A stretch of DNA of 64,000 nt from Bacillus sp. REN16 (GTDB lineage: Bacteria; Bacillota; Bacilli; Bacillales; Bacillaceae_L), in assembly GCF_020731355.1 (NCBI RefSeq), contig NZ_JAJFZK010000005.1, positions 248,001 to 312,000 of the forward strand, given 5' to 3'. This document shows positions 1 through 17,579 of this stretch, piece after piece (position 1 is the first letter of the stretch; each line of letters begins with the position of its first letter). The notes under the pieces are model-generated. The model made no database searches. It was not told the origin of the DNA and saw only the letters and a list, made by a program, of their open reading frames with translations. The translations under genes were made by a program, and so were the position numbers.

Positions 1-2
1 AG

Positions 3-1748
3 AGTGCGAAGATTGATCGCAGAACAATGGTTCAACATCCTCCGAAACAGCTTGATGAAGTAACAAAGTACTTAGAAAATCTAGCAAAACAGGAAAATAT
101 CACAGTCAAGCAGTTATGGCTTGACCCGATACCTGCAAAAATCTATTTAGATCATTTAGCTGTTAAATATCGTGAAGTAACAACGAATCGCTTTGAATTG
201 AACCCGGTGATTGGGGAATATGATGATCCGGCGAACCAACGCCAGAATGTAATGAGACTACCAATAACAAAGGATGGCAATACTATCATTTACGGAGTTG
301 CGGGTAGCGGGAAGACGACGTTTGTTGCGTCAATCATGTACTCGCTCATGGAATCTCATACGCCAGATGAACTGAATGCGTACTTGCTAGATTTTAGCTC
401 GGAAACATTAAGCTGGTTCCGTGAAGCGCCACATGTTGGGGATGTTCTATTATCCCATGACAGTGAGAAGATTGATAATCTCTTTAAAATGTTAGGCAGC
501 GAGATTGAGAGACGTAAAAAGCAGTTGTCCAATTATGGCGGCGACTTGCAGACGTACAACCGTCTGTCAGAGGACGGTCTGCCATCGATTGTGATTGTGA
601 TCCACAACTATGCCGCGTTTTCTGAAATGTACGAGTCGCATGAGGAGTCGATTTCCTTCCTCACTCGTGAGGGGACGAAGTACGGGATTTATTTTATCGT
701 GACAGCTGCCCATACCGGTGCAATTCGCTACCGCTTGATGCAAAACTTCAAGCAGCTGTATGTATTGCAGCTTAACGACACGACGGAGTATTCAGCAGTA
801 CTTGGAAATGTTGATGGCGTCTTCCCATCGAAGCATAAAGGCCGAGGTATTTTCAAGGCTGACGGCGTCTATGAATTCCAAGTTGCCCTGATTACGGAGG
901 GTGTAGAGGACATGTACCAATACATCACCGATTACTGTCGTCGTTTGCGCGACAATTGGGGCAAGAGTGCTGCGAAGCGAATTCCAGTCTTGCCGGAAAA
1001 AGTCGATATCGAGTATCTGCATGATGAAATTCATTACAACAAGTCTAATAAACTTCCAGTTGGTGTGGAAAAAGATTCGCTGGCTGTGACATATTTTGAT
1101 TTCGGTCAATCATGTGTGAATCTTGTCTTGGCAAGCAGCAGCGAAACCACATCAAGCGTGATGCAAGGGATTTCCGAAATCATTCATACGAATGAGAAAA
1201 ATGAAGTCATCGTGTTTGACCCGAATGAGGATCTGATTGAACTTGGCGGCAAGCATGTGTCGAGTGCAGCAGAAATCGAGGAAACCGTCGTTTACCTCTT
1301 TAACACATTGGTGTTCCGCAACAACACAACGAAAGATGCGGTTGAAGAAGGTGCAACACCACCAGTGTTCGAACCGATTTTCTGCATGATTCATTCATTC
1401 AGCGACATGATGATGCTTTTATCAGAGGACGGTCAGGATAAGCTGAAGGTCTTTCTCGAGCGGATTGACGGACTCAATGTATATATGGTCATCTCAGACC
1501 GTGCTGATGCGTTGAATTCAGTTGCATTTGAGCCTTGGTTTAAAAAACAGGCTTCGTTAAGCGACGGAATCTGGGTTGGAAACGGCATTACCGATCAGTA
1601 TTTAATGAAGGTTTCAAAAGTCACAAACAGCATGTATCAAGAAATCCCAGAGGACTTCGGATATGTGCTGACAAAAGGAAAACCAAAGTTAGTCAAACTT
1701 TTAACGGGTTCGAAGTCACGCGTTGAGGAGGCGGTCTATCATGGATAA
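3..1748 (+). CDS. essC: EssC/YukB-type T7SS ATPase, C-terminal part (5' end outside window)
   Basis: Membrane-linked FtsK/SpoIIIE ATPase that drives export of WXG100 substrates in Firmicute type VII secretion. The reading frame is open to the left edge, so the protein begins upstream; about 580 C-terminal residues are visible. These cover the last two ATPase modules. The first has a clear Walker A (GVAGSGKT, about bases 292-318). The second is degenerate: where Walker A should be, near bases 1130-1160, the sequence reads ASSSETTSS. The Walker B-like strands end in IVIVIHN and CMIHS, with His where Asp is usual. Known EssC/EccC proteins also carry degenerate distal modules that bind substrate signals. 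The stop overlaps the next start by 8 bases. Family assignment rests on the ATPase layout and on the esaB-like and WXG100 neighbours. Confidence 0.88.
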   Translation, partial: SAKIDRRTMVQHPPKQLDEVTKYLENLAKQENITVKQLWLDPIPAKIYLDHLAVKYREVTTNRFELNPVIGEYDDPANQRQNVMRLPITKDGNTIIYGVAGSGKTTFVASIMYSLMESHTPDELNAYLLDFSSETLSWFREAPHVGDVLLSHDSEKIDNLFKMLGSEIERRKKQLSNYGGDLQTYNRLSEDGLPSIVIVIHNYAAFSEMYESHEESISFLTREGTKYGIYFIVTAAHTGAIRYRLMQNFKQLYVLQLNDTTEYSAVLGNVDGVFPSKHKGRGIFKADGVYEFQVALITEGVEDMYQYITDYCRRLRDNWGKSAAKRIPVLPEKVDIEYLHDEIHYNKSNKLPVGVEKDSLAVTYFDFGQSCVNLVLASSSETTSSVMQGISEIIHTNEKNEVIVFDPNEDLIELGGKHVSSAAEIEETVVYLFNTLVFRNNTTKDAVEEGATPPVFEPIFCMIHSFSDMMMLLSEDGQDKLKVFLERIDGLNVYMVISDRADALNSVAFEPWFKKQASLSDGIWVGNGITDQYLMKVSKVTNSMYQEIPEDFGYVLTKGKPKLVKLLTGSKSRVEEAVYHG

Positions 1749-1992
1749 GGTGTTAGTCGAGGTTTTCATTCCAGCCTCAGGCGAATCCTATGACGTCTTC
1801 ATCCCGTCCCAGAGCAAGCTCTATGAAGTCACATTTTTACTCGCAAACACGATGACAGAGCTCTCGGGCGGCTACTTCGTCGCAACCGACACCACCGTCG
1901 TCTGCGACCGCGAAACCGGCACAATCTTTGACATCAACCAGACTGTGGAAGAATTGGGATTTTTAAACGGTAAGAAATTGATGCTGGTTTAG
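1741..1992 (+). CDS. EsaB/YukD-like ubiquitin-fold T7SS protein
   Basis: An 83-aa cytosolic protein that looks like the YukD/EsaB family, small ubiquitin-fold proteins needed for or regulating WXG100 secretion. The start is ATG 1741, with GAGGAGGCGG just upstream; an in-frame TTG 18 bases earlier lies in the ribosome site. Alternating hydrophobic strands (VLVEVFIP, YDVFIPSQ, FVATDTTVV) and the C-terminal LNGKKLMLV fit a beta-grasp fold. It overlaps the essC stop, so translation is probably coupled. Family placement is by size, pattern and context. Confidence 0.75.
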   Translation: MDKVLVEVFIPASGESYDVFIPSQSKLYEVTFLLANTMTELSGGYFVATDTTVVCDRETGTIFDINQTVEELGFLNGKKLMLV

Positions 1993-2209: not shown

Positions 2210-3001
2210 ATGAGGTTTCAAAAGAGGGTAGTCTTATTCCTTCTTCTATTCATTCTCATAATAGGAGGAACAGGGTGTATGAGTTCAAGTAGCGCAAGTA
2301 CCGAGGATAAAGCGATTCAGTATTTAGAAGACAAGTATGACAAGGAATTTGAGGTCATGTACGCAAAAGAGGGAAGTAAGCTTTTCCAGGATTTATATGG
2401 CGGGGACATGATTACCGTTCATCCAAAGGGAGAACCGAACGAGGTTTTTACTGTTAAAGAATTTAATGATAAAGGTGAATGGATTGATAACTATTTACTG
2501 GCTAAATGGGGATATGAATTACAACAAAAGCTTGAATCGGATATAGCTAAAGAGCTACCTGAGGGGACCCTTTTTAAGGTGAATTTTTCGATTAATAGCC
2601 AGTTAGATGAATCAATGATGGATATGTCAGTGGAAGATTACCTAAGTAAGTATAACGATGCCAGGGTATCCCTTATTGCGGGAATTAAAACTTCTGGTGA
2701 GCCGGACATCGATCAATATAGCGAAGGAATTTACAACCTTTTTCAATTGTTTAAGGGATTAGGTACGGAGCTTTATGTCATTTCTGTTGGATTTGTCGAT
2801 CAATCTGAAGACATTTCTGAATACATTCAAACATCTTTCGTAAATAACCTTCCATGGTCAAATTTAAAAGGGAAGGTATACGGTGAAGTGAACGTTGATG
2901 ACAGACTTGATCCTGAAAATCCAAGTGAAAATGTCCATCCGGATGTAATCTTACAAAGTCCTGCGAATGTAATGGCGAATTACGAAGCATTTGAGGAGTG
3001 A
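2210..3001 (+). CDS. Putative lipoprotein of the T7SS lipase module (possible immunity protein)
   Basis: A 263-aa exported lipoprotein: positively charged N-terminus, hydrophobic stretch and a lipobox ending GGTGC (Cys about residue 23), then a charged extracytoplasmic domain. AAGGAAGGTG precedes ATG 2210. It ends 4 bases before the lipase gene start. In Staphylococcus aureus, T7SS-secreted lipase TslA is encoded beside lipoprotein immunity proteins (TilA). Position, size and lipidation here match that arrangement, so I infer a protective or accessory role outside the membrane. I recognise no catalytic motif. Immunity is inferred from context. Confidence 0.6.
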   Translation: MRFQKRVVLFLLLFILIIGGTGCMSSSSASTEDKAIQYLEDKYDKEFEVMYAKEGSKLFQDLYGGDMITVHPKGEPNEVFTVKEFNDKGEWIDNYLLAKWGYELQQKLESDIAKELPEGTLFKVNFSINSQLDESMMDMSVEDYLSKYNDARVSLIAGIKTSGEPDIDQYSEGIYNLFQLFKGLGTELYVISVGFVDQSEDISEYIQTSFVNNLPWSNLKGKVYGEVNVDDRLDPENPSENVHPDVILQSPANVMANYEAFEE

Positions 3002-3005
3002 TCAA

Positions 3006-4409
3006 ATGTCTCTTGCACAGCTAACAGAGGAAGAAAAGTATATTTTACTTGAATTTTCCTATCTTGATATCCCTAGTGATTCAATGCCAAGTAAAAATAA
3101 GCAATATACAATCGACGATATTCTTAAAAATATTCGAGTTCCAGACTTAAATGAAGGGCAACTGACAAAATACAATGCCATAAAAAAGTTTATGGATGAG
3201 GACCGAAATGAATTTTCTCCACTTAAAGATGTTACCTTAAGTGGTTATCAAAATAATAACCCTAATGGAGGAAACAATTCCGGAGGGGATTCTTACTCTG
3301 GCTTTGTCGGCTATGCGTTTACCGATAAAGAAGGGAACGGTACAGCTGTATTTAGAGGTAGTGAGGATTTAACAAATGTGGCTCATATCGCAACAGACTG
3401 GGTATCCAATGTTGAGGCGGGTATCGGAGTTACGATTCAACAGCAAAGGGAAGCAGATGCCTTTTATGGAAAATTCATTAAAGGCTTAGATGGAGAACAG
3501 TATGTATTCGGTCATTCCAAAGGCGGAAATCTGGCGGAATATGTACTCGTCAATAATCTCGATGATGAAAAGTTGACCTCGTATATTGTGAATGGCGCTC
3601 CCTTATATTATTGGACCTTAACAAAGGCGCAACGGGATGCTTTAAAGGATCGCAATACATTTATTGTACATGAAGGAGATGTTGTTTCATCTCTTGGATA
3701 TGCGCCATATGTAGATAAAACAGTTAAAATAAACAGCACGGAAGAAGGCTTGATGTATCCACATGGCTTGGATAGCGTGGATTTTACAGCACAGGGGGAT
3801 TTTAAAAATGCAACTGAGGGAGCCTCCCTTGTGCGGGATATCGGAAATCCAATTGCCGGAATTATTATGTTGGCAGCCTCACTTCATCCAAAGGTCTTGG
3901 TGTATAGAGCAGCGGCTGCGATTCGCGATGCCACATTATATATTTTAGAAGCAGCAAAAAGAGGACTTGAAAAGGCTGTTAACTGGGTGAAGGACCAGGC
4001 AACCAAATTCATTGCAAAGGTAAAAGAACTAACGCAACAGGTCAAGGATGAAATTAACCAATTCATAACGAATGTAGCATCAAAAGCAGCCATGATTTTT
4101 GTAAAAGTAGTTGCGAAGCTTGGTGGTTACTTCCCGGTTGAACCTTACCTAAAAGTGAATGTAGATCGTCTTTACTACTATGCCCAAAGACTTGAAAGCA
4201 TTAAGCGTCGTGTGAACGCACTGAATGACAGGATCGATTCCCTCTATTGGGAGGTTGATCTTTTAGACATACGTCATGTGTTGAGCGCCGATATCCTAAC
4301 TTCATTTTCGTTCAGGCTTAATCAAAACATTAGCTACTTAAATACTGCTGCCCGATTGCTTGAATCGAGCGAAACAAAGCTAGTTGGCAAGGCAAGGATT
4401 ATTCGCTAG
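3006..4409 (+). CDS. Alpha/beta-hydrolase (lipase) with helical C-terminus, probable T7SS toxin
   Basis: A 467-aa protein; start ATG 3006 (GAGGAG about 9 bases upstream; an in-frame TTG at 2991 lies in the ribosome site). Residues about 90-260 form a lipase-like domain with nucleophile elbow GHSKGG (Ser171), similar to DUF2974/Mbeg1-like hydrolases. Candidate acid and base lie in HEGDVVSS and YPHGLDSVDF. After a hydrophobic linker, residues about 300-467 are long amphipathic helices rich in Lys, Glu and Gln. A secretion-type helical domain at the C-terminus, with the enzyme at the N-terminus, is the reverse of LXG toxins and is the plan described for TslA. No Sec signal is present. Phospholipase activity against competitors or hosts is inferred. 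Confidence 0.7.
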   Translation: MSLAQLTEEEKYILLEFSYLDIPSDSMPSKNKQYTIDDILKNIRVPDLNEGQLTKYNAIKKFMDEDRNEFSPLKDVTLSGYQNNNPNGGNNSGGDSYSGFVGYAFTDKEGNGTAVFRGSEDLTNVAHIATDWVSNVEAGIGVTIQQQREADAFYGKFIKGLDGEQYVFGHSKGGNLAEYVLVNNLDDEKLTSYIVNGAPLYYWTLTKAQRDALKDRNTFIVHEGDVVSSLGYAPYVDKTVKINSTEEGLMYPHGLDSVDFTAQGDFKNATEGASLVRDIGNPIAGIIMLAASLHPKVLVYRAAAAIRDATLYILEAAKRGLEKAVNWVKDQATKFIAKVKELTQQVKDEINQFITNVASKAAMIFVKVVAKLGGYFPVEPYLKVNVDRLYYYAQRLESIKRRVNALNDRIDSLYWEVDLLDIRHVLSADILTSFSFRLNQNISYLNTAARLLESSETKLVGKARIIR

Positions 4410-4433
4410 GAGAAACCAAAGGAGGGACTGCAG

Positions 4434-4625
4434 GTGAAGCCTCATGTTCAACGGAAGATTAATAGCATTATCGCTGAAATCAATGCGATCTCACGGGAAC
4501 TCGATGAGATCTCCAATGGACTCAATCGGGAATTTAAAGGGATTGGCTCAACCAAAAGTGCATCCAGCCTGCAAAGTGCAGCCGACAAATATCGAAGGGT
4601 TGGCCATAACTTACGGCGGATTTGA
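4434..4625 (+). CDS. Small helical protein, possible T7SS toxin partner
   Basis: A 63-aa protein starting at GTG 4434 with GGAGGG upstream, 24 bases after the lipase stop. It is predicted by eye to be a helical hairpin (long amphipathic first helix, a break at FKGIGSTKS, and a second helix). Small helical partners that bind the targeting domain of T7SS toxins (Lap/TlaA-like) are typically encoded beside the toxin. That role is inferred from size, fold and position; no diagnostic motif was seen. Confidence 0.55.
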   Translation: MKPHVQRKINSIIAEINAISRELDEISNGLNREFKGIGSTKSASSLQSAADKYRRVGHNLRRI

Positions 4626-4650: not shown

Positions 4651-4906
4651 TACGTACCCTTCTGCGGATAGTTTTGGGGAAATGGGAACGCATCAGGGGC
4701 TTGCGTGCCCGATTGGGGTAGAGTTGCTAGAAAAAGGTAACGAATCGGGTGCATGCGTGCCCGATTGGGGTAGAGTTGCTGGAAAAAGGTAACGAATCAG
4801 GTGCATGCGTGCCCGATTGGGGTAGAGTTGCTGGAAAAAGGTAACGAATCAGGTGCATGCGTGCCCACTTCGATAGAGTTATAGAAAAATAGGTAACGCA
4901 TCTCAG
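4651..4906. repeat. 52-bp tandem repeat, about 5 units
   Basis: Units recur at 4703, 4755, 4807 and 4859, exactly 52 bp apart, with a degenerate unit starting near 4651. The motif GCGTGCCCGATTGGGG marks each. Where AATCGGG and CCCGATT face each other across TGCATGCGTG they form a short inverted repeat. No credible reading frame is maintained, because 52 is not a multiple of 3. Confidence 0.9.
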
Positions 4907-4962: not shown

Positions 4963-5121
4963 CGGTGTATCAAAAGGGTAGATTCACAGGCGTGATATAC
5001 CGCAAACGAGTTTATCGGTATACCAACGGTTCAGAATCGCAGGCGTGGTATACCGCAAACGCACTAATCGGTATATCAGTGTGTCAAATTCACAGACTTG
5101 ATATACCGCAAACCAGGCACG
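4963..5121. repeat. 53-bp tandem repeat, 3 units, upstream of the WXG100 genes
   Basis: Three units begin near 4963, 5016 and 5069, 53 bp apart, each containing GATATACCGCAAAC. The segment GATATACCG...CGGTATA(C/T)C is an inverted repeat across unit boundaries. With the preceding 52-bp array it fills most of the 590-base gap between the lipase module and the first WXG100 gene. I see no clear promoter in the last 90 bases, only a small CTCGG/CCGAG hairpin near 5160-5177. Confidence 0.85.
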
Positions 5122-5215: not shown

Positions 5216-5518
5216 ATGGCACGTTCAATTACAGTTGATCCAGCGAAATTAGACACTGCGGCTACTCGCATTGACCAGCAATCTGCTGACTACGAGAGAC
5301 TTTACAAAGCTCTTTACACAGAGGTTGAGGGCATGGGTGCAGCATGGCAAGGTACTGATAATATGGCATATGTTTCTCAAATCAAGGGCTTCATGGATGA
5401 CTTCCAAAAAATGACGAACTTGATGAGACAATACTCCGAATTCTTAAAAGTAAGCTCAAAAACATACCGTGAAACACAAAGCGAGGTTGTAAACCAAGCA
5501 CGTCGCTTAACAAACTAA
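5216..5518 (+). CDS. WXG100 family protein (EsxA/YukE type)
   Basis: A 100-aa helical hairpin protein of the WXG100 family, the small secreted substrate class of type VII systems. The turn carries W44-Q45-G46 (AAWQGTDN) between two amphipathic helices. A strong AAGGAGGTG precedes ATG 5216. The C-terminal tail does not show an exact YxxxD/E export signal (YRETQ). It lies 41 bases before a second WXG100 gene, suggesting the two form a heterodimer or alternative substrates. Confidence 0.93.
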   Translation: MARSITVDPAKLDTAATRIDQQSADYERLYKALYTEVEGMGAAWQGTDNMAYVSQIKGFMDDFQKMTNLMRQYSEFLKVSSKTYRETQSEVVNQARRLTN

Positions 5519-5558: not shown

Positions 5559-5861
5559 ATGTCAGTTGATGGAATCAAGATTTCCCTTGGTGAGGTAAGT
5601 AAAACCGCTGGGCAAATCCGTACCCTAAACCAACAGCTTGCAACTGCATTAGAAGACATCAAGAAGGAAATGAACGGCTTAGCCGCTACATGGAACTCTG
5701 ACGCTTCTAATACAATTCGCGGAAACTTCAATGCATTGGCTCCACGTTTCGAGGAGTATCGCCAAGTCATTGACAGCTACGCTAAATTCCTAGACAACAC
5801 TGTTACAAACTACAACGCAGCTGAAACAGCAATTAACAATAACGCTAGCGCATTTAAATAA
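5559..5861 (+). CDS. WXG100-like protein with WNS turn
   Basis: A 100-aa helical hairpin like its upstream neighbour, with ribosome site AAAGGAGGTG. The turn reads W45-N46-S47 (ATWNSDAS), so the glycine of WXG is replaced by serine. The C-terminal helix has Y86-N-A-A-E90, which matches the YxxxD/E export signal that the upstream protein lacks. One member with the signal and one without is the usual pattern of paired WXG100 heterodimers, so co-export is a reasonable inference. Confidence 0.9.
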   Translation: MSVDGIKISLGEVSKTAGQIRTLNQQLATALEDIKKEMNGLAATWNSDASNTIRGNFNALAPRFEEYRQVIDSYAKFLDNTVTNYNAAETAINNNASAFK

Positions 5862-5927: not shown

Positions 5928-7187
5928 ATGATCAAACATGTTGATTTACAGATTGAAAACTACGGTGTTTCGAAATTCATTTTTTATAAGGTGCCATCTG
6001 AGCTTCGTGTTGATTTTACAGAAGCCGATAAGCTAAAAAACAACAAAGTCCCGGGGCTTTTGCCGTGTGTTGTGATTAACAAGACCGATGAGGCGTTCTT
6101 TCGCTATGACTTGGTGACGGAGGTAACACTTGCGCAAGCAGCAACGAACGAGCTCACCAAAGAACAGCTTCACTCATTTTTCACCAACATCGTCGAAACA
6201 TTGATCGAGGCCGAGCGACTCGGGTTGAATGTGAACAACTTTGTTTTTGATGAGAACTACATCTTTATTGATAATTTTTCAAACAGATTAATTCTACTGT
6301 ACATGCCAATTAAAAATAATATTTTTGAAAAGGTATCAATCCGGGAATTCTTCACCAGCTTTCTGCACTCCCACTCCTATGATGAAAATGATGACCTTAC
6401 TTTTTTTGTGAGATTACATAATTATTTCGCAACATCAGAGGAAATCAATCTTTATGCGATTCAAAAAAAGCTGCATGAACTGTTAATGAACAAGCCGGCT
6501 TCGCCTCAAAGTTTTCAGAAGCTGCCGATTCATGATGAAGAACCTAGGACGCCGAATTATTATAGTCCAGGCAGCGAAATCAAGGCATCTGAAGAAAATG
6601 GTGTTATCACATCAGAATACAGCAGCAAAAGGTCTGATAAAAAGAAACGACAGCAGCTTGAGATTGAGGAAGAGGTCCAATATAAGCGGATCACTCGTAC
6701 CGAGCTTGGCGAAGGGAATTCCCTGTTAGCAGGCGGGACCTCGATCAACATTAAGCCGAATATTGGCAGTCCTATTTCCTTTGATACGGATGAGCCAGAC
6801 GAGGAGGAAGAGGGCACAACCGTCCTCACTGCCTTTAAGGAGCCTGAAGAGGAAGAAGGCACAACTGCACTTGGCGTCGGTACTGGCTTCCACCAGCAGC
6901 AGCCATTCCTGCTCACGGCTACTCAAGAAAAAATCATCGTTACAAAGAAAGTCTTTAAAATTGGGCGTGACCCCGGGGCTACTGACTACACGTCTAAAAA
7001 TAAGGTCGTGGGACGCGTGCACGCGGAGTTGATAACTGAAAACGGGGAGTATTTTATCGTTGACCAGGAATCGCGAAACGGCAGTTATGTAAATGGCATC
7101 AAGCTCGTGCCGAAAAATAAGGTGAAAATCAAGCATGAAGATCATATCAAATTAGCGAACGAAGAATTTGTGTTTAGGCTTTTCTAA
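5928..7187 (+). CDS. FHA-domain protein of the T7SS locus (DUF6382-like N-terminus)
   Basis: A 419-aa cytosolic protein; ATG 5928 chosen because GGGAG sits about 9 bases upstream, between it and an in-frame ATG at 5913. The N-terminal 180 residues resemble the domain found before FHA in some Firmicute proteins. An acidic low-complexity linker contains two near-identical EEGTTVL and EEGTTAL motifs (Thr297/298 and Thr312/313). The C-terminal 85 residues are a complete FHA domain: KIGRDP, VGRVHAEL, NGSYVNG. FHA domains bind phosphothreonine, and the GTT motifs resemble the regulatory ETT sites of GarA/OdhI, which the FHA binds after phosphorylation. The phosphatase and kinase genes follow directly, so it is probably their reader and substrate. 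Confidence 0.85.
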   Translation: MIKHVDLQIENYGVSKFIFYKVPSELRVDFTEADKLKNNKVPGLLPCVVINKTDEAFFRYDLVTEVTLAQAATNELTKEQLHSFFTNIVETLIEAERLGLNVNNFVFDENYIFIDNFSNRLILLYMPIKNNIFEKVSIREFFTSFLHSHSYDENDDLTFFVRLHNYFATSEEINLYAIQKKLHELLMNKPASPQSFQKLPIHDEEPRTPNYYSPGSEIKASEENGVITSEYSSKRSDKKKRQQLEIEEEVQYKRITRTELGEGNSLLAGGTSINIKPNIGSPISFDTDEPDEEEEGTTVLTAFKEPEEEEGTTALGVGTGFHQQQPFLLTATQEKIIVTKKVFKIGRDPGATDYTSKNKVVGRVHAELITENGEYFIVDQESRNGSYVNGIKLVPKNKVKIKHEDHIKLANEEFVFRLF

Positions 7188-7205
7188 TAGTTGAGGTGAT
7201 AAAAA

Positions 7206-7973
7206 GTGGCGTTCATACATGCATACCACACAGATGTTGGAATTAAGAAAAAAACAAACCAGGATGCCATGCTTGTCAAGACGGCGAGAACGCCGAACGG
7301 GTATGTCGGGATGTTCGTTGTTTGCGACGGAATGGGCGGGCTCTCTCACGGGGAACTAGCGAGTGCCACGGTCGTTCGCGGACTATCCGACTGGTTCGAA
7401 CAAGGACTTCCAGACCTGCTGCATTCTACCCGGCAAGAAGAGGATATTCGCGAAGCACTTGAAGCCTGCATAACCGAGCAAAATGAAAAAATCCTCAATT
7501 ACGGGGATGAAACTAATACTCAGGTGGGAACAACAGTGACCGCGCTTCTAATCATTCATTCGCGTTACTATATCGTACATATTGGCGATAGCCGCGCCTA
7601 TCAAATTCAGGATCAGGTGACAAGGCTAACGAAAGACCAAACCTTGGTGGAACGTGAGGTGGAGCGCGGAAACATTACACCTGAGCAAGCCTTGAAGGAT
7701 CCGCGCCGCAATGTGCTTTTACAATGTGTTGGTGCGACAAAGGAGCTTGAGGTCGTCATCCTAACCGGTGAAACGCAAGCGGGAACGTTATTCTTACTTT
7801 GTACGGATGGTTTTTACCATAAAATCACGGATGAGGAGCTGCTTGAGGAACTCCGACCGAATCCATTTTTAAACGAGAAGCAGTTAAAATACAAGGCGAT
7901 TAAACTAATTGATGCCGTGAAGGAACGAAAAGAGGTCGACAATATCTCGATTGTTCTTGCGCATGTAGTGTGA
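7206..7973 (+). CDS. PP2C-family Ser/Thr protein phosphatase
   Basis: A 255-aa metal-dependent phosphatase that would reverse phosphorylation by the neighbouring kinase. PP2C motifs occur in order: VCDGMGG (metal-binding Asp), GTTVTALLI, IGDSRAYQ, LLCTDGFY and the final EVDNISIV. No membrane segment, so cytosolic. The start GTG 7206 has TTGAGGTG upstream and follows the FHA gene by 18 bases. The family is that of PrpC/Stp, normally paired with PrkC-type kinases elsewhere in the genome; here the pair is dedicated to a T7SS locus. Confidence 0.93.
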   Translation: MAFIHAYHTDVGIKKKTNQDAMLVKTARTPNGYVGMFVVCDGMGGLSHGELASATVVRGLSDWFEQGLPDLLHSTRQEEDIREALEACITEQNEKILNYGDETNTQVGTTVTALLIIHSRYYIVHIGDSRAYQIQDQVTRLTKDQTLVEREVERGNITPEQALKDPRRNVLLQCVGATKELEVVILTGETQAGTLFLLCTDGFYHKITDEELLEELRPNPFLNEKQLKYKAIKLIDAVKERKEVDNISIVLAHVV

Positions 7974-8021
7974 AATATTGATTGGTGGATTTAAAGATTT
8001 GAAATTTGAACATAGAATTCA

Positions 8022-8144
8022 GTGTCTAGCTCCAGCGCCTAGCCCCTCGAGGTCATAAGCCAATCGCTTCGGAAGGTAAAATGCACCTTCTGTCAGCGCT
8101 TGTCTTATGCTTGTCGGGGCTAAACAAGGCGCTTGCGCATTTCG
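8022..8144. repeat. Dispersed long-hairpin repeat, family A, copy 1
   Basis: About 120 bp beginning TGTCTAGCTCCAGCGCCTAG. It folds into one long stem: AGCGCCT with AGGCGCT, AGCCCC with GGGGCT, CATAAG with CTTATG, and AAGGT with ACCTT. A second full copy is at 22173-22294, and fragments lie at about 37804 and 58932. It sits between the phosphatase and kinase genes and supplies a false in-frame ATG (8081) for the kinase. Confidence 0.88.
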
Positions 8145-8155
8145 GGGGAATTACG

Positions 8156-10096
8156 TTGATTAAAATCGGAAGTTTTATAGATGATAGATACGAAGTATTG
8201 AAGGAAATTGGGCGCGGCGGGATGAGTATTGTCTATTTGGCGATGGACAACCGGCTCAACAAGTCCCTTGTCGTCAAGGATATCCGCAAACGTGACAACA
8301 GCAACAACGAGCTTCTTATCAACAGCTTAGTTGTCGAAGCGAATATGCTGAAAAAACTCGATCATGGCTCACTTCCGAAGATTTACGACATCATCGAATC
8401 GGAGGGCGACATTTACGTCGTGATGGATTACGTCGAGGGTGAATCGCTTAAGCAAAAGTTGAAACGGGAAAAGATCATTCCGGCAAAGCTTGTGATCAAT
8501 TGGGCGAAGCAGCTTGCAGAAGTACTCGGATATTTACATACTAGAAAGCCGCATCCGATTATTTACCGCGACATGAAGCCAGATAATATCATGCTCACGC
8601 CAGAAGGAAAAATCAAGCTGATTGACTTTGGGATTGCGCGCGAATTTAAGGATGAGAGCCTGACGGATACGACGAATCTTGGGACGAAAACCTATGCCGC
8701 ACCCGAGCAGCTCTCCGGAAAACGAACCGATGCCCGAACTGATATTTATAGCTTAGGTCTGACACTATACCAACTTATAACCGGTAAAAGCCTAGCTGAC
8801 CCACCGTATGAAGTACGACCAATTCGGCAGTGGGACCCGACCTTACCGGAAGGGCTCGAGCACATCATTTTAAAATGCACGCAGGCTGAACCGGAAAATC
8901 GTTATCAAACGTGTGCCGAGCTTTTATATGATCTTGAAAACATCAATAAGCTTACTGCCGGCTACCGGAAAAAAATGATGAAGCGGCTCTATCTCTTTTT
9001 AATACCAGCCGTCTTATGTCTAGGTTTTTCAACGACATCCGTGTTTGGCTATCAAGGCATGAAAAATGTGCAGTTCCAGGATTACATGGGGCTAGTCAAT
9101 GAATCTAGCATTGCATTGATTGAGGACGATGATACTGTGGCGATCAAGCTTCTGGAAAAAGCGATCAAGGTTGATAAGGGCCGCGCATCCGCCTATAACA
9201 ACCTGCTCGACGTGTATATCAATCGAAATGACGTGGACACAGGTATTTCAAAAATCGAGTCCTATATCAATGATGAATACGGGAATATCCATAAAAACAG
9301 TGAGGTTCTTTTTAAACTAGGAATGACGTATTTTGACCGAAAACGGGATTACCCTGTGGCATTGAAGTATTTTAAGCAGGTGAATGAAAAAGAGATTCCG
9401 GACGCGACCTACTATATCACGCTTGCAACAACATTGGGCGGCATGAATATCGATTACGATCAGTTCTCTACGAATCTCTTAGAGTTTGAGTCGTTTAATG
9501 ATAACCTCCCGAACAACGCGAAAAAGGTAGATAACTATAATTCACTAGCTAATATTTACATTTCATATAAGGGGCAAATCGCTGACGCCAATACAAAAGC
9601 GATCACGGTTGTTCAAAAGGCACAGAGGGTTCTCGAGTTAGCTCCGGATGAGCAGCTGCAGCTTAAATACGAGATTGAATTTGAGCAAAAGCTTGCTCAG
9701 GCTTTTTACAGTCGAGGTGTGAATTCAGAGGATCAAGTGGCCGCTCGCGATGATTTCGAGCAGGCGATCGAGCACTATAATAATCTTCTTGAACTGAATG
9801 TGCCGAACAAAGAAGAGGTTATGGTCAATATCGGCGTCATATATCAGGAGATGGGCGAGCATTCCCAAGCCGTCGAGCAATTTGAAGGAATCATAAAAGA
9901 ATATCCGAAAAGCCTGAATGCCTATGTAAAGCTTGGCAATCTGATGCTTGATATTGAGCAAGGCAAGCAGGAGGACCAGCGCAACTATGCGAAGGCGAAG
10001 GAAGTCTTTGATAAAGCAGGCGCGCTTGAGGGCGCGAAAGACAACGAAGCATATAAAAAACTGGCAAGGCGCATGGCGAATTTAAATATCAGCTAG
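8156..10096 (+). CDS. Membrane Ser/Thr protein kinase with extracytoplasmic TPR domain
   Basis: A 646-aa Hanks-type kinase. Start TTG 8156 is preferred (GGGGGAA about 7 bases upstream); the longer ATG 8081 start would translate a dispersed repeat. Kinase domain residues about 12-270: Gly loop GRGGMS, Lys41, catalytic loop YRDMKPDN (Asp139, with Tyr instead of the usual His), DFG at 157-159 and APEQ. One membrane segment follows at about 277-297, then about 340 residues of TPR-like helices that should lie outside the cell. PrkC kinases carry PASTA domains there; TPRs suggest a protein-protein sensor instead. Likely phosphorylates the Thr motifs in its FHA and membrane neighbours. Confidence 0.92.
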   Translation: MIKIGSFIDDRYEVLKEIGRGGMSIVYLAMDNRLNKSLVVKDIRKRDNSNNELLINSLVVEANMLKKLDHGSLPKIYDIIESEGDIYVVMDYVEGESLKQKLKREKIIPAKLVINWAKQLAEVLGYLHTRKPHPIIYRDMKPDNIMLTPEGKIKLIDFGIAREFKDESLTDTTNLGTKTYAAPEQLSGKRTDARTDIYSLGLTLYQLITGKSLADPPYEVRPIRQWDPTLPEGLEHIILKCTQAEPENRYQTCAELLYDLENINKLTAGYRKKMMKRLYLFLIPAVLCLGFSTTSVFGYQGMKNVQFQDYMGLVNESSIALIEDDDTVAIKLLEKAIKVDKGRASAYNNLLDVYINRNDVDTGISKIESYINDEYGNIHKNSEVLFKLGMTYFDRKRDYPVALKYFKQVNEKEIPDATYYITLATTLGGMNIDYDQFSTNLLEFESFNDNLPNNAKKVDNYNSLANIYISYKGQIADANTKAITVVQKAQRVLELAPDEQLQLKYEIEFEQKLAQAFYSRGVNSEDQVAARDDFEQAIEHYNNLLELNVPNKEEVMVNIGVIYQEMGEHSQAVEQFEGIIKEYPKSLNAYVKLGNLMLDIEQGKQEDQRNYAKAKEVFDKAGALEGAKDNEAYKKLARRMANLNIS

Positions 10097-10112
10097 AGAG
10101 GGGGGCTATCGT

Positions 10113-10682
10113 TTGGAATACCAAATCATGTTTTATGGGGGATTAGCGGGCGCGTTGGTCACGCTCATTATCTCAATCATCGTCTATATGAAGCTACAAA
10201 TCTCTCAAGTTTTTGCAGACCTTACGGGAAATCGATTTATGAAAAAGAAGAAAAACGGCCGCATTTCCCTTGAGGCTCAGGAAACGAAGCGGACAACGAG
10301 TGAAATCAAGCTTCGGAAGAAGGAAGTTCCAGTTGCGGCATCGGTTGAGGACACTTCCCTCATGAGCCAAGAGCTCGAGTCTACCTCCTTGCTTGAGGAA
10401 AACACAATAGCACCCACGGGTTTGCTGGCAGAAAGCAAATCAGCAGAGGAAACGTCACTATTGGAGGAAACCTCGCTTTTATCACAAGAAACAGCCCTTT
10501 TACAGGACGACGATGAAACGACCTTGCTAGTGGATGACGATGAAACATCGATTCTCCTTGAAGGCGATGGCGAAACAGCCATCCTCACTGTGCCTGAGGA
10601 AGAATCCGATTTTGAAATTGAAGTGGATGTAATGATTATTCATACAAATAAAGTAATCGAACAAAGGAGCGTCGTAAAGTGA
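10113..10682 (+). CDS. Membrane protein with nine repeated E-T-x-L-L motifs, likely kinase substrate
   Basis: A 189-aa protein from TTG 10113 (AGAGGGGGG upstream). One N-terminal membrane helix (residues about 7-27) is followed by a basic stretch and then an acidic tail. Residues 79-158 carry nine copies of a [ED]-T-[STAG]-[LI]-[LMI] motif, with Thr81, 91, 102, 114, 120, 127, 136, 145 and 155; the +3 residue is always aliphatic. FHA domains read phosphothreonine plus the +3 residue, so this looks like a multivalent docking tail for the FHA protein after kinase action. No family was recognised. It overlaps the next gene by 4 bases. Confidence 0.75.
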   Translation: MEYQIMFYGGLAGALVTLIISIIVYMKLQISQVFADLTGNRFMKKKKNGRISLEAQETKRTTSEIKLRKKEVPVAASVEDTSLMSQELESTSLLEENTIAPTGLLAESKSAEETSLLEETSLLSQETALLQDDDETTLLVDDDETSILLEGDGETAILTVPEEESDFEIEVDVMIIHTNKVIEQRSVVK

Positions 10683-13600
10683 TAGCAATGATCTCAAAAA
10701 GCTACCGAAAAAACAAATCGGTCTTCTGGATCCCGATCGCGTTTGTGTTAGTGCTGTCGGTGGTTTTGTTTAGCCTGAATGTATCATCACAGGTTGACAC
10801 AAAACAATTGATCCATTTTAAAAATGAACAACCTTGGGAAATTGGCCAGGAATTTTCAAATGAGTGGTATATAAATAGTAATACCCTTCAGTTCCAGGTC
10901 GATTTAAAAGAAGACTATGCGAATTATATGACGCCAAAAGAGGGTGGCGACCAAACAACTGAGGATTCAATTACACCCCCTGATCCGACCAAAATACCTT
11001 TTGACATCCAAATAAAAGGCTCAGGAAATGTGGCTAGTATAACGCCAGTCACGGAAGGCGGATTCACAGGTCTTTACAATGTATCCATTCCGGACATTAA
11101 CAAGGATGGTAAAGTACCGGTAACCATTAATTTTGATAAGGATACGTGGGTAATTGACCCGCCAAATGAATCAACCTTTAATGTAAACAAAGATTCTAAG
11201 GCACCCGTTGTTAAGTTATATGGTGTCGAAGAAGGCTGGTTTTTTGATAAAACAGTGAAACTATACATCGAAGTTGATGAAGAACACTTTACACAAGATG
11301 GAGTGAAGATGGCCATCATCAAGGATGAATCCGAATATGAATCAAAAGATCAGATTGAATGGAATGGAAATAAAGGTTCCATTACTTTTGATGAAACAGG
11401 ATATTATGAGATATCCGTGACAGCAATAGATAAAGCAGGAAACCCAAGCGAAGCAAAGTCCATTTCTTTTGGAAACCTTCATGGCGGGCAAACACTAAAT
11501 ATTGAAAATAAAACAGAAAATGATTTTTATAATAAAGATGTCAAATTTGTTTTACAAAATCCACTCAATATTTCTTCAGCATCTTTAACGTATAAGAAAG
11601 ATGGAGAAGAGCAAGAACAAGAGATCCCAATGGTAGTTGGAGGAATCTTTAATAAAAAATCAGCAACTGCCACGATCTCAGGAGAAGGAAAGTACGCAGT
11701 ATCTGCGAAGGTAACTGATCGTAAGGATACTGATAAGAAATTAGGAACCATCCTAAATGTCATCATTGATAAAACAGCACCTGAGCTTTCCGTTACTGGT
11801 GTTGAAAATGAAGAGAAGTATACACAATCCAAGGATTTAGTCGTTTCAGCAAGTGACCCAAATTTTGACGAAGATAAATCCATATTAAAGATAACGAAAA
11901 ATGGAACAACTGAAACCATTAAAGGTAAAGCAGCTATTGGGACACACAATTTAACAGATGGTGTTTACAGCGTCGAAGTAAGTGTGTTTGACAAAGCTGG
12001 AAATGAAACGAAATCCACTGCACTTACTTTTACAATCGATACTGAGAAACCAGTTGTTGAGATTTCTGGGATCGAAAACGGGAAGTTTTATTCAGAAGAT
12101 CCAACTGTCCATTTTTCAGTAGAAGACCTTACTCCTGATTTAGATAAAACAACTCTTGTTGTTAAACATAACGAAACAGACTTTACGGAAGAAATAAATT
12201 TCGTACAGGACGGTACAAAGGCTGAAGCAATTCATACATTTAAAACGGAAGGCAAATACACAATCGAGTTAAGCTCAACTGACCAGTTGGGGCATGTGGC
12301 GGATAAGGTCACAAAAACATTTACACTTGATAAAACAAAACCAACCGTTTCCCTTACTGGTATTGAAAATAACAAAAAATATAACAGTCAAGTGGACGTA
12401 GAAATTGTTGCTGAGGATACAAACAAAGCTGACGGAAGTACTGTTTTAACAGTAACAAAAGATGGTAAAACAGATGTATTTAAAGGCGACAAAGCTCATA
12501 AGACTCATAGTTTCAAACAAGAAGGTGTTTATGAAATTAACGTAGACTACTTCGACAAAGCAGGAAACAAGGCTGACTTTACTCAATTAACTTTTGTAAT
12601 TGATAAAACAGCTCCAGATCTTTACATCGAAGGCGTAAGTGAAGGCGAGTTTTACAATGATGAAACGCCAGTCGAGTTGAGGGTTGAGGATTGGAATATC
12701 GACTTAGACAAAATTGAACTAACGATTACAAAGGATGGAGAAACCTATCCAACTGATGGAATCGATTTTACGAAACAAAAGAACCGAATCGCTGAGGCGG
12801 AACATACCTTCACCGAGAATGGCAAATACGTTGTAAAACTAAAGTCAACTGACGAGGCAGGAAATACCGCTGCCGAAAAACAAGTCAGCTTTACAATCGA
12901 TAGAGTATCTCCAGAAATTACTGTATTAAATATTGGAGAAAAAGGAAGCTATGACACAGATCGTGATGTGAAAATTTCAGTCACTGACCTCCATATGGGC
13001 GAGTCAAGTGTAGTGGTTACACATAATGGTGAACCATATTCAATTGATCCACTAAAGCTGGAAGGACAAAAAGCAACGACAGGATATAACTTTACAGTTG
13101 ATGGCGTTTATGAGCTAAAAATTGTTTCAACTGATAAAGCTGAGAATGTTAGTAAAAAAACAGTAAAATTCACACTTGATAAAACTGGACCTGACATTAA
13201 GTATAATATTGAAAACGGCAAGTATTTTAAAGATGAGAAAGTGGATCTAACTGTAACTGTTGATGATTACACACCGTTTGTTCCTGAAATCACAGTGAAT
13301 AACGAGGATATAAAAGAAAGTTGGATTCAGAAGGTGAAATGGTTTATTACACAAGAATTAACCATTTCATTTGAAGAAGAGGGCGTTTATTCAGTTAATG
13401 TAAAAGCAAAGGATGCTTTTGAAAAGGAAAGCAGCAAGGATTTAGGCTTCACAATCGACCACACACCACCAGCTATTCAAATCGGTGGTAACATCCCGAA
13501 CGAAGGCTTTGTCCAAGGCAACAACGAGTTAATCGTTGATATCAACGACCTTCATTTTGATGCAACTAAAAATGAAGTGTTTGTTAATGGCAAACCGGTT

Positions 13601-16015
13601 CAGGATGCAAAATGGACTGAAACTGAAACAGGTTATCAGTTCAAGCAAAGCTTCCCAGAAGATGGTGACTATGAAGTCATTGTTCGCTCTGAAGACTTTG
13701 CGGGTAATAAAGCAGTAGAGCAAAAACACAAATTCACAGTGGATAACGTAAAACCTGTGATCACAATCGAAAACGTTAAAGACCAAACATTTTACGCTAA
13801 AAAACAAACAGCTACCGTTAAGGTTAACGAGCTGAATTTTAAAAACAATCAGGTTGAAGTTAAAGTAAACAATCAGCCTGTTGAGTGGAAAAACCAAGGT
13901 GTAGAATCAAGTCTTGCGATTCCGTTCAACGAAGATGGCGACTATGTGATTAAGGTAACGTCAACGGATGCTGCCGGTAACATTGCGGACGCACAAGAAG
14001 TTACGTTCACAGTTGACGAAAGCTTCCCGGCTCTAAAAATCACTGGCGTTGACCACATGACAAACTACAATGTAAGTAAGCAAGTTTCTTTCGAAGTTAA
14101 TGATGCGAACATCGGCCAGACGTCATTACGTGTGACAAAGGACGGCAAGGCTTACGAGGTTGGAGCTCTAAACCAATCTAGAACAAACGCAAGCCTGACT
14201 CATAATTTCACAGAAGAAGGCAGCTATGTCCTATACTTCAATGCAACTGACAGATCAGGCAATAAAACAACCTATGATGAAATTGCGTTCATCATCGACA
14301 AAACGTATCCAGTTGTAAAAATTGACGGTGTGGATCACCAGTCCTTTAATCCAACTGGCAAACGTGTTACCGTTTCTGTTGATGAATTGAATTTCGGTAC
14401 GAATTATGTTGTGCTTTCCGTAACGAAGGATGGCAAGGTATTTAACATCGGAACATGGGAAAACAACAACAAGCTTTCAAGTTTAGGCTACAATTTTAAT
14501 GATGATGGCTTGTACACGATTGCGATTAGCGCGAAGGATAAGGCTGGCAACGGTCCAATTGCCGCAAATAAAACATTTACAATTGATACAACAAAACCGG
14601 CAATTGAAATTACAGGTGTTGAAAATGCAGCCCATTACAATGTCGATAAGCCTGTTAGTGTAGCGATCCGTGATGTGAACCTTGATGTGAATCGCATTAC
14701 CGTGACACGTAACGGCAGAGGATACAATGCTGGTGGATTTGCGGTAGCAAATCAGACTGCACGACTCAGCCATAATTTTAGCCAGGAAGGTGACTATGTT
14801 GTAAGTGTCGAAGCGATTGACAAAGCGGGTAACCAATTCAGCGACCAGATTGCTTTTACAATCGATAAAACAGCTCCAGTCATCACTCCGAAATTTAAAG
14901 GTCAAAGCCGTGTGATTAAGGATGGCGAATATATTAATGAAGTATTCACACCTGAATTTGCACTTGACCAAAGTGAAGATACAATTGTTTCGGTAACGAT
15001 GAATGGTTCAAATGTGACCGGCCGAATTCCAACGGCATCACTTGAAATGTCGTATAAATACAGTGTTCTTGCGCGAGATAAAGCAGGAAACGAATCAACA
15101 ATTGATATTAGTTTTATTCTGGATACGACAAAGCCGGTATTGAATATTACAGGGGTTATCGATGGATTCTTCAACAAGAACCAAATGCCAAATGTAACGT
15201 ATTCCGACCGATATCTTGATTCAAGTCGTACAAAAGTAACCTTAAACGGCCGTCCATATGTGAATGGCTTACAGCTAAGTGACGAGGGAGATTACATTTT
15301 AAAAGCGGAGATTTATGACTTAGCAAACAATGTGTCATCCCGAACAATTGTATTTACGATTGATAAAACATCACCAGTTATTAAGTTTAAGGAAGCTATT
15401 TCAGATAAGTATTTCAAGGAAAGCTTGCTTCCAGAGCTGTTGATTGAGGATCTAAATGCATATGATATCATTTCACAAACCTTGAATGGTCAGCCTTACA
15501 ATCTTGGTGACCCAATCGAGGAAGAAGGAAAGCACGTTCTCTTCTTCGAGGTGAAGGATAAAGCAGGAAATATCCAGCAGCTTAGCGTTGAGTTTATTAT
15601 TGATAAAACTCCTCCAAAAGTGAATTTCGATGGCGTAAAGAAAAACGAGACCTATCGTGACCCAGTGACGATCAACATCAGCCTTGATAATCCGAGTGAT
15701 TACCTCAAATCTGTCATGATCAATGGAGAGCTTTTCGATGGGGATGTAAAAGAAGTGAACGGTACAAAAGTGATAACTGTTACACTTTCTGATATCAACC
15801 AATACAAGGTTGAAGTGTTAGCTTTCGATGAAGCGGGGAACGAGAATAACGAAGTCATGGAATTCGAAATCGTAGAAAAAAGTGTACTCGTCAAGTTTTA
15901 CGAAAATAAAACGTTATTTGCGGGCACAATGGTCGGGCTTGTCGGGGCCGCAGCAGCAGGTGCTGTAGCAATCCGAAAAGTGATCATCCGCAGACGAGAC
16001 GAAAAGGATATGTAA
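10679..16015 (+). CDS. Giant cell-surface protein with about 17 Ig-like repeats
   Basis: A 1778-aa protein starting at GTG 10679 (AAGGAG about 10 bases upstream), overlapping the previous stop (GTGA). N-terminal membrane segment at residues about 15-37, then about 17 repeats of roughly 85-90 residues. Each ends FTIDKTxP and restarts with a strand such as VVEISGIENGKFY; DKAGN is a second recurrent signature. These are bacterial Ig-like folds. A C-terminal membrane helix (about 1748-1765) with a short RRRDEKDM tail anchors it, with no LPXTG. It is the largest product in the operon. A stalk or envelope-spanning partner of the secretion machine is inferred. Confidence 0.85.
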   Translation: MIAMISKSYRKNKSVFWIPIAFVLVLSVVLFSLNVSSQVDTKQLIHFKNEQPWEIGQEFSNEWYINSNTLQFQVDLKEDYANYMTPKEGGDQTTEDSITPPDPTKIPFDIQIKGSGNVASITPVTEGGFTGLYNVSIPDINKDGKVPVTINFDKDTWVIDPPNESTFNVNKDSKAPVVKLYGVEEGWFFDKTVKLYIEVDEEHFTQDGVKMAIIKDESEYESKDQIEWNGNKGSITFDETGYYEISVTAIDKAGNPSEAKSISFGNLHGGQTLNIENKTENDFYNKDVKFVLQNPLNISSASLTYKKDGEEQEQEIPMVVGGIFNKKSATATISGEGKYAVSAKVTDRKDTDKKLGTILNVIIDKTAPELSVTGVENEEKYTQSKDLVVSASDPNFDEDKSILKITKNGTTETIKGKAAIGTHNLTDGVYSVEVSVFDKAGNETKSTALTFTIDTEKPVVEISGIENGKFYSEDPTVHFSVEDLTPDLDKTTLVVKHNETDFTEEINFVQDGTKAEAIHTFKTEGKYTIELSSTDQLGHVADKVTKTFTLDKTKPTVSLTGIENNKKYNSQVDVEIVAEDTNKADGSTVLTVTKDGKTDVFKGDKAHKTHSFKQEGVYEINVDYFDKAGNKADFTQLTFVIDKTAPDLYIEGVSEGEFYNDETPVELRVEDWNIDLDKIELTITKDGETYPTDGIDFTKQKNRIAEAEHTFTENGKYVVKLKSTDEAGNTAAEKQVSFTIDRVSPEITVLNIGEKGSYDTDRDVKISVTDLHMGESSVVVTHNGEPYSIDPLKLEGQKATTGYNFTVDGVYELKIVSTDKAENVSKKTVKFTLDKTGPDIKYNIENGKYFKDEKVDLTVTVDDYTPFVPEITVNNEDIKESWIQKVKWFITQELTISFEEEGVYSVNVKAKDAFEKESSKDLGFTIDHTPPAIQIGGNIPNEGFVQGNNELIVDINDLHFDATKNEVFVNGKPVQDAKWTETETGYQFKQSFPEDGDYEVIVRSEDFAGNKAVEQKHKFTVDNVKPVITIENVKDQTFYAKKQTATVKVNELNFKNNQVEVKVNNQPVEWKNQGVESSLAIPFNEDGDYVIKVTSTDAAGNIADAQEVTFTVDESFPALKITGVDHMTNYNVSKQVSFEVNDANIGQTSLRVTKDGKAYEVGALNQSRTNASLTHNFTEEGSYVLYFNATDRSGNKTTYDEIAFIIDKTYPVVKIDGVDHQSFNPTGKRVTVSVDELNFGTNYVVLSVTKDGKVFNIGTWENNNKLSSLGYNFNDDGLYTIAISAKDKAGNGPIAANKTFTIDTTKPAIEITGVENAAHYNVDKPVSVAIRDVNLDVNRITVTRNGRGYNAGGFAVANQTARLSHNFSQEGDYVVSVEAIDKAGNQFSDQIAFTIDKTAPVITPKFKGQSRVIKDGEYINEVFTPEFALDQSEDTIVSVTMNGSNVTGRIPTASLEMSYKYSVLARDKAGNESTIDISFILDTTKPVLNITGVIDGFFNKNQMPNVTYSDRYLDSSRTKVTLNGRPYVNGLQLSDEGDYILKAEIYDLANNVSSRTIVFTIDKTSPVIKFKEAISDKYFKESLLPELLIEDLNAYDIISQTLNGQPYNLGDPIEEEGKHVLFFEVKDKAGNIQQLSVEFIIDKTPPKVNFDGVKKNETYRDPVTINISLDNPSDYLKSVMINGELFDGDVKEVNGTKVITVTLSDINQYKVEVLAFDEAGNENNEVMEFEIVEKSVLVKFYENKTLFAGTMVGLVGAAAAGAVAIRKVIIRRRDEKDM

Positions 16016-17565: not shown

Positions 17566-17579
17566 TAATTAGTATGTCG

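Follow-up and report, generated by a model that had tools for sequence, protein, structure and literature searches.

A 64,000-nucleotide stretch of the genome of Bacillus sp. REN16 (assembly GCF_020731355.1, contig NZ_JAJFZK010000005.1, positions 248,001 to 312,000 of the forward strand; hereafter the window) carries a type VII secretion system (T7SS) locus in which two WXG100 genes are followed, in this order and on the same strand, by genes termed J, F, D, K, and I. We consider it likely that F, D, K, and I constitute a portable envelope signaling cassette that serves a secretion ATPase machine, with the tail of K acting as a phosphothreonine dock for FHA domains. J (TsxJ; 5928..7187) combines a DUF6382 domain, a linker with two EEGTT[VA]L motifs, and an FHA domain (Pfam E values of 7.1e-18 for DUF6382 and 1.5e-13 for FHA). 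F (TsxF; 7206..7973) is a PP2C/PPM phosphatase (PP2C_2, 1.2e-14), the type adjoining D being called F2. D (TsxD; 8156..10096) is a Ser/Thr kinase (Pkinase, 1.8e-51) with YRD, DFG, and APE motifs, one transmembrane helix, and a TPR domain (Pfam) predicted to be extracytoplasmic. K (TsxK; 10113..10682) has one transmembrane helix close to its N terminus, a basic juxtamembrane stretch, an acidic tail, and a conserved C terminus, and I (TsxI; 10679..16015) is a 1,778-amino-acid Ig-like domain protein (PF19077, 1.9e-65, six stretches) with a hydrophobic segment near its C terminus.

An earlier reading of these letters by themselves (the sequence-only reading) had picked out the kinase, the phosphatase, and the FHA protein, and all three were confirmed here, both directly and by Pfam. 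The two J motifs likewise proved correct, EEGTTVL lying at residue 299 and EEGTTAL at residue 314 of a 424-amino-acid open reading frame (ORF) whose FHA core is at 348, and its start at 5928 is preferred over the mechanical ORF start at 5913, relatives beginning MIKHV. The kinase most likely starts at the TTG at 8156 rather than at 8081, the start of a 671-amino-acid ORF, because 8081 lies within a repeat element; both the start codon and the topology of D are predicted from its sequence and its relatives.

A threonine-only array in the tail of K

K gave no Pfam match at an E value of 0.1. Its single hydrophobic helix near the N terminus is followed by a lysine-rich stretch, and under the positive-inside rule a basic juxtamembrane stretch marks the cytoplasmic side, which is why the tail is placed in the cytoplasm. 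The threonine array runs from 10350 to 10586 on the forward strand, from first to last motif (coordinates derived by hand from the motif list). The sequence-only reading had counted nine motifs of the form [ED]-T-x-[LI]-[LMI]; nine T-x-[LI]-[LMI] motifs do follow the transmembrane helix, but Asp or Glu occupies position -1 in seven only, the remaining two carrying Ser and Pro, so that the count with [ED] was too high by two. The 166-amino-acid tail contains 10 T-x-[LIVM]-[LIVMF] motifs, compared to an average of 1.43 when its residues were shuffled, and none of 1,000 shuffles reached 10. K also has 8 matches to [EDPQ]-T-x-[LIV]-[LM], and no other window ORF of at least 60 amino acids (n = 168) exceeds one. 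Across eight K proteins from the genus, invariant residues occupy 24 of the 27 motif positions (T, +2, and +3) versus 25 of 51 spacer positions.

The array recurs in relatives. Once identical sequences had been dropped, the fetched loci held 61 distinct K proteins, with a median of 6 T-x-[LIVM]-[LIVMF] motifs per tail and a range of 0 to 21. The motif number was matched by at most 1 of 1,000 shuffles for 44 of these tails and by at most 10 of 1,000 for 48. The consensus over 400 motifs was E/D-E-T-x-L-L, with Glu (38%) or Asp (22%) at -2, Glu at -1 (62%), mostly Thr, Ala, Glu, or Ser at +1, Leu, Ile, or Val at +2 (97%), and Leu at +3 (90%). When the central position was left free, as in [ED]-?-x-[LIV]-[LM], the K tails gave 294 matches, of which 262 had threonine and a single one had serine at the center, serine making up 7.2% of tail residues. 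The same pattern in C (EssC), D, I, and F proteins (n = 618) had threonine in 10.0% and serine in 4.2% of cases. This threonine-only rule is what a reader restricted to phosphothreonine would demand. All four threonine codons are used, and 51 of the 52 K proteins with at least three motifs mix two or more of them. A chance origin or a low-complexity tail was set aside on the shuffles, the Thr:Ser ratio, and the variety of codons.

A six-frame survey of the fetched loci, duplicates included, yielded 5,610 ORFs, 57 of which have at least three [EDPQ]-T-x-[LIV]-[LM] motifs. They comprise 56 of the 71 K proteins and one kinase of a Tad locus with an array at its own N terminus, so that only one of the 5,539 other ORFs reaches three motifs, a part of the result that is not circular.

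That kinase, beside a Tad locus (L040, 2939 to 5281), carries four of these motifs, as if K had been fused to it. Outside the array, two further stretches recur in K of relatives: T-[ST]-x-E-I next to the membrane, ahead of basic residues, and D-[VI]-[MV]-[IV]-[IV]-H at the C terminus.

Conservation of the gene set

Judged by its kinase, REN16 is nearest to the Fredinandcohnia/Bacillus timonensis group, at 96% identity (among the best 80 of 120 relatives). A scan of genome contigs with D gave 79 distinct named loci, again for the best 80 of 120 relatives. Together with regions of the G-numbered genomes, and with duplicates removed by identical last 300 residues of D, this made 88 D loci, which by their neighbors fell into 38 linked to T7SS genes, 15 linked to Tad-pilus genes, 1 linked to both, and 34 linked to neither; some of the last class are distant kinases or lie on cut contigs. 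Every one of the 38 T7SS-linked loci has J, F, K, and I, a count in which the presence of D and J is partly selected for, as loci were found via D or DUF6382. K was present in 11 of the 15 Tad-linked loci, in the locus linked to both, and in 10 of the 34 linked to neither.

Among 396 genomes of the order, a T7SSj-type EssC (called at an E value of at most 1e-60) was found in 23 and the TPR kinase in 21. Both occurred together in 19 genomes, compared to 1.2 expected if they were independent (the rows are related), and in 18 of the 19 they lay within 15 kb of each other. Four of the EssC genomes lack the TPR kinase (G036, G290, G009, and G051). Among them, G036 has a kinase with another ectodomain and K and I on the same contig, and G290 has a kinase with another ectodomain plus K, the gene past K being cut off. 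The two genomes with the kinase and no such EssC, G074 and G108, are both Tad linked. The sequence-only reading had tied its model to co-conservation of these genes with esx genes in relatives. This was borne out in 18 of the 21 kinase-bearing genomes, which have the T7SSj-type EssC within 15 kb; it failed in part in a set of 16 cassette genomes, 6 of which lacked an EssC match at 1e-10. In genome G066, the T7SSj core, near 1.32 Mb, has no cassette beside it; the cassette lies in a Tad locus near 1.68 Mb, approximately 350 kb away.

The cassette in Tad-pilus operons

The F-D-K-I cassette of relatives also occurs in Tad-pilus operons, and specificity of the set for the T7SS was rejected on these copies and on copies apart from both machines. 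The Tad genes were checked by Pfam in G074 (Gracilibacillus), where T2SSE (1.9e-61), T2SSF in two proteins, Flp1_like, and TadE were found, together with a ParA-type protein that was assigned as TadZ and a type IV leader peptidase. Profiles derived from the G074 genes served to call the other loci. Eight such profiles gave no match in the window or in the contig sequence upstream of it (L004). Tad genes stand beside a cassette with K in L036, L037, L041, L082 to L084, L088, L091, L099, and L102. The Tad linkage of L072 depends on a TadZ-like gene by itself, and its J and extra phosphatase group with Tad ones.

Trees of D, F, and J point to exchange between the two machines. In the D tree, made by a quick method with long branches flagged and holding 76 of 88 rows (five distant kinases and D frames under 480 amino acids were left out), T7SS- and Tad-linked rows are mixed. 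L073 (T7SS) and L037 (Tad) are sisters with a support of 98, and two Aquibacillus species, one of them L072, differ in linkage. The F tree, of 38 chosen loci, likewise mixes linkages for F2; a further phosphatase, whose gene does not adjoin a long D, falls into a single group made up of Tad rows alone (14 rows from 12 loci, 99/99). The J tree, of 36 chosen loci, places 13 Bacillales Tad J proteins in one group (100/100) and 16 T7SS J proteins in another (82/70); clostridial Tad J proteins L099 and L102 and T7SS J proteins L048 and L093 fall outside both. Because the F and D trees mix linkages and J groups by machine, we conclude that in Bacillales F2-D-K-I is exchanged between the machines, each of which keeps its own J.

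An FHA domain was found in all 20 chosen cassette genomes that were searched. In 9 of the 10 with a Tad-linked cassette, J is the sole FHA protein, the tenth (G066) having J plus the T7SSj EssC. Six genomes with a cassette apart from both machines were examined, and all 6 had a match to the J profile (built from chosen rows) in a Tad operon elsewhere; in one of them, G161, only a TadE-type gene matched beside J. Truly stand-alone cassettes were set aside on this result.

These data bear on two other explanations. The cassette could be an ordinary cell-wall-sensing kinase unit that merely sits beside T7SS and Tad genes and controls neither directly, an idea that gains from the copies apart from both machines (L076, L085, L096, L100, and L105) and from the 350-kb separation in G066. 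We find it unlikely, given that J, F, K, and I accompany D in all T7SS-linked loci, that every genome tested for it encodes a machine-linked FHA adaptor J, and that J is the only FHA protein in 9 of 10 Tad-linked genomes. Alternatively, the tail of K could be a substrate sink or counter for D, as in multisite kinase autoregulation, with the FHA domains acting elsewhere. K adjoins D wherever this was counted, the array of L040 sits on the kinase itself, and seven loci linked to neither machine have D-K-I without a neighboring J (L076, L085, L095, L096, L100, L105, and L108), with L109 being similar, all of which would suit a sink. The near absence of serine (262 Thr to 1 Ser) and the aliphatic +3 residue would fit FHA recognition better than a Ser/Thr kinase alone, and the six tested genomes of this type keep J in a Tad operon; we therefore regard a sink as improbable and retain the FHA dock as the preferred reading of the tail.

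Two aspects of the Tad-linked relatives are mentioned in passing. A YukC/EssB-family protein follows J and a kinase in the Tad operons of two relatives (L038, 7110 to 8399, minus strand, and L039, 12548 to 14056, plus strand; genomes G051 and G064), with PF10140 matches of 1.1e-24 and 1.1e-27, above the cutoff. The record for L056 is named Chryseobacterium sp. ISL-80, and in all three trees (D, J, and F) it clusters with rows from Cytobacillus or Bacillus; it is possibly a misnamed Bacillaceae assembly.

FHA domains as candidate readers

An FHA search of the REN16 genome returned two domains only, one in EssC and one in J, both at the locus. With no further FHA domain found in the genome by this search, the question of which protein reads K can be addressed directly to two proteins. 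The gene for the EssC/TsxC ATPase is cut by the start of the window, which holds its C-terminal part (1..1748, forward strand); the remainder was read from the same genome's contig, and the whole frame is 1,545 amino acids, its N-terminal half lying upstream of the window (L004, 15138 onward; genome C45). The EssC FHA domain lies just outside the window and was hence invisible to the sequence-only reading. It matched at 9.5e-19 and is canonical, with GR, a Ser three residues before the His, and [SA]-N-G-T, both in its own sequence and in relatives covering the region. The FHA domain of J retains the Asn and has Arg or Lys at the GR position. Its serine is present in 14 of 14 Tad-linked and 12 of 13 other loci linked to neither machine.

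J has a motif of its own. A T-x-[LIVM]-[LIVMFG] occurs within 90 amino acids before the FHA core in 63 of 66 J proteins, and it is near -30 of the core in most of the 20 J sequences displayed. The possibility that DUF6382 is an EssB-like pseudokinase was considered; the profile comparison was weak, with a probability of 19.7 against EssB plus two Tad relatives, 1.0 against EssB alone, and 13.3 against D, and a comparison of DUF6382 to solved structures gave nothing below an E value of 0.4.

Several observations count against K as a selected dock that is read by the FHA proteins of the locus. The motif number of 13 of 61 K tails (8 clostridial and 5 Bacillales) was matched by more than 10 of 1,000 shuffles, and the K of L105 has no motif. 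Of the 294 pattern matches, 32 have a center other than threonine, chiefly Val and Glu with 10 each. K was recognized by a K-derived profile, so the 56 of 57 ORFs with arrays are partly circular. The locus counts are not independent, since the rows share ancestry and D or DUF6382 served to find the loci. Four of the 15 Tad loci lack K, and 11 of the 34 loci linked to neither machine have I and no K matched near D. In two of the 23 genomes with T7SSj-type EssC (G009 and G051), the stretch that was read holds a kinase ORF along with J and F and neither K nor I. Finally, the FHA domain of J has Gly at the conserved Ser in 36 of 38 T7SS-linked loci, that of the window included, and the window J has an Arg before the FHA Asn. 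J may thus bind phosphothreonine weakly or not at all.

The sequence-only reading had made J the protein recruited to the tail, and this part of it does not hold well against the Gly that replaces the Ser of SRxH. The main reader is more probably EssC, because the J FHA domain has Gly for Ser and the EssC FHA domain is canonical. What did survive of the proposed switch is that the tail behaves as a selected, threonine-only array of FHA type, that the gene set is co-conserved in T7SS-linked loci, and that the only two FHA domains of the genome are both in the locus.

The T-x-L-L repeats could instead be phosphorylation-independent docking motifs, i.e., short amphipathic segments for EssC, J, or I, with the targets of the kinase elsewhere. 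The FHA region of EssC in the T7SSb is argued to bind EssB without phosphorylation (PMC9600267), the conserved Ser is missing from the J FHA domain of 36 of 38 T7SS loci, and phosphorylation of K is a prediction from its sequence. Such docking would tolerate Ser or Val at position 0, yet threonine is nearly fixed there, and the window EssC FHA domain retains the phosphothreonine residues, unlike its T7SSb counterpart (PMC9600267). We judge it to be quite unlikely and return to a phosphothreonine dock in what follows.

A possible mechanism

The sequences show the gene content and its co-occurrence, the conservation of the motif and its threonine-only rule, the residues of the FHA domains, and the exchange of the module; from these we infer phosphorylation of K, binding to it, a signal, and control of secretion, which may be switched on or off. 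D would be a membrane Ser/Thr kinase with its TPR domain outside the cell, and I a large Ig-like envelope protein; the TPR domain and I would both lie on the outer side, where the wall or a neighboring cell may be sensed, the signal possibly passing through I and the TPR domain. Active D would then phosphorylate the threonines of the [DE]-T-x-L-L array, making K a membrane-tethered multisite substrate. The row of phosphothreonines would recruit FHA proteins to the membrane by avidity, and F would remove the marks. The T7SS would have two readers, the FHA domains of EssC and of the adaptor J, and J may fold on its own phosphorylated motif as GarA and OdhI do. The presumed outcome is a T7SS whose assembly or activation depends on phosphorylation wherever D-K-I is active; in relatives, this cassette would act at Tad pili together with a different J. 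The candidate reader, writer, eraser, and row of marks would all be encoded within one operon. That a secretion system and a pilus exchange the cassette hints at one layer of control shared by otherwise unrelated machines.

Comparison to known systems

The locus resembles the T7SSj and T7SSe, named in 2024 by Garrett, Higginson, and Palmer, who already raised control by threonine phosphorylation (PMC11217815). Shared features are an EssC with an N-terminal FHA domain, WXG100, a YukD-like protein, PPM phosphatase F, a DUF6382-FHA J, a K with a single transmembrane helix, an Ig-like I, and, as in the T7SSj, a kinase with C-terminal TPRs. The window locus has all of these, its EssC FHA domain carrying the phosphothreonine residues, its D a TPR ectodomain, its YukD-like protein being below the cutoff in a conserved position, and its K being assigned by position, transmembrane helix, and tail. 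An EssC reading of Clostridium cibarium, with one internal stop, showed 53% identity over the C-terminal part. The locus differs from the published types in lying in the Bacillaceae, and from the T7SSj in having two WXG100 genes (5216 and 5559), a pair reported for the T7SSe and T7SSg (PMC11217815). Tad genes were reported beside the T7SSg and T7SSh, and a TadZ-like domain in the T7SSf (PMC11217815). The motif array, the J motif, and the cassette in Tad operons were not found in the main-text parts of that paper, and no paper on the K array or a Tad-shared cassette was among the matches listed in a literature search that most subscription papers lay outside. The sequence-only reading had known of no characterized T7SS in Bacillaceae with the full set; the locus type is published as T7SSj/e, without experiments in those parts of the text (PMC11217815), and what is new here is the array with its rule, the argument from the sole FHA domains, the exchange with Tad pili, and the Bacillaceae as a main home.

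The T7SSb likewise has an EssC with FHA domains, WXG100, and a YukD-like protein, and its EssB, a pseudokinase with a transmembrane helix, is topologically like D. A related report describes an EssB-like fold in the conjugation protein TraF (PMC13037476). PF10140 (EssB/YukC) gave no match at an E value of 0.001 in the REN16 genome, with a positive B. subtilis control, and a T7SSb that had lost EssB was set aside on the lack of a YukC match in the genome. The binding of the T7SSb EssC FHA region to the EssB pseudokinase is argued to be phosphorylation independent, and the two FHA domains of T7SSb ATPases are described as "of unknown function" with phosphate-binding residues lost (PMC9600267). 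The window EssC retains the phosphate site that the T7SSb EssC has lost (PMC9600267).

J resembles GarA and OdhI in having a Thr motif approximately 30 residues before its FHA domain, with acidic residues before it and hydrophobic residues at +2 and +3 (PMC2784874, PMC6733907). In OdhI, Thr14/15 precede an FHA domain at 43 to 143, and the threonine of GarA/OdhI is bound by the protein's own FHA domain (PMC2784874); known tails that are bound by their own FHA domain have Glu at -2 and hydrophobic residues at +2 and +3 in common (PMC6733907). J differs in its additional DUF6382, its two motifs, and the Gly at the canonical FHA Ser. The threonine phosphorylation pathway of the type VI secretion system is a working precedent for the mechanism, in that PpkA marks TssL at Thr14 and Fha binds the phosphorylated residue (PMC3953482). 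Both have a membrane kinase, a membrane substrate, and an FHA adaptor on a secretion machine; the machines are unrelated, and there is one TssL site versus an array on a dedicated K (PMC3953482). In the MviN tail-PknB-FhaA system (PMC12599244) and in the SDTD repeats of MDC1 bound by the NBS1 FHA domain (PMC3280358), a kinase-marked region likewise recruits an FHA protein in a different biology.

More tentatively, and with considerable doubt on our part, F-D-K-I could be a phospho-clutch of general use that membrane secretion ATPases of Bacillota exchange among themselves, with the T7SSb as a frozen, constitutive descendant. If this were true, a wall-facing sensor kinase would mark a multivalent phosphothreonine array whose copy number (up to 21) sets the avidity, and a machine-specific DUF6382-FHA adaptor would pick the T7SS or the Tad pilus. 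The T7SSb would represent a dead kinase, EssB, bound by FHA domains without a phosphothreonine site, and the EssB-family proteins of Tad operons (L038 and L039) would be intermediates.

Other genes and features of the locus

The gene order begins in upstream contig sequence (L004) with a WXG-like small protein and a 139-amino-acid membrane protein, followed by essC and the YukD-like gene, then by a lipoprotein gene, a gene for an Mbeg1-like protein, a 63-amino-acid ORF, and the WXG100 genes A1 and A2. The 139-amino-acid protein (L004, 14679 to 15098), immediately before essC and without a Pfam match, could be a missing core component. The YukD/EsaB-like small protein (TsxB; 1723..1992, forward strand) had a PF08817 E value of 0.0056 and 17.8 bits, short of the cutoff of 27, and its position is conserved in relatives. 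WXG100 proteins A1 (5216..5518; PF06013, 4.2e-14; TIGR03930) and A2 (5559..5861; WXG100/ESAT6_2; PF06013, 4.2e-12; NF035934, 3.1e-46) are both on the forward strand. The lipoprotein, Mbeg1-like protein, and 63-amino-acid ORF occupy window positions 2210 to 4625 between essC and the WXG100 genes; similar genes are found in relatives, where the lipoprotein gene is sometimes present in several copies (L147). Together they look like a candidate reverse-order T7SS lipase with lipoprotein immunity (cf. PMC10730906). The REN16 genome has three Pkinase matches.

A repeat element with a 23-base core has two copies in the window, at 8023 to 8155, between the phosphatase and kinase genes, and at 22173. 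Tandem repeats with units of approximately 41 to 168 bases, in up to 14.5 copies, lie at window positions 4680 to 4902, 4982 to 5113, 17577 to 17943, and 52634 to 53383, as well as at 7026 to 7370 of L004.

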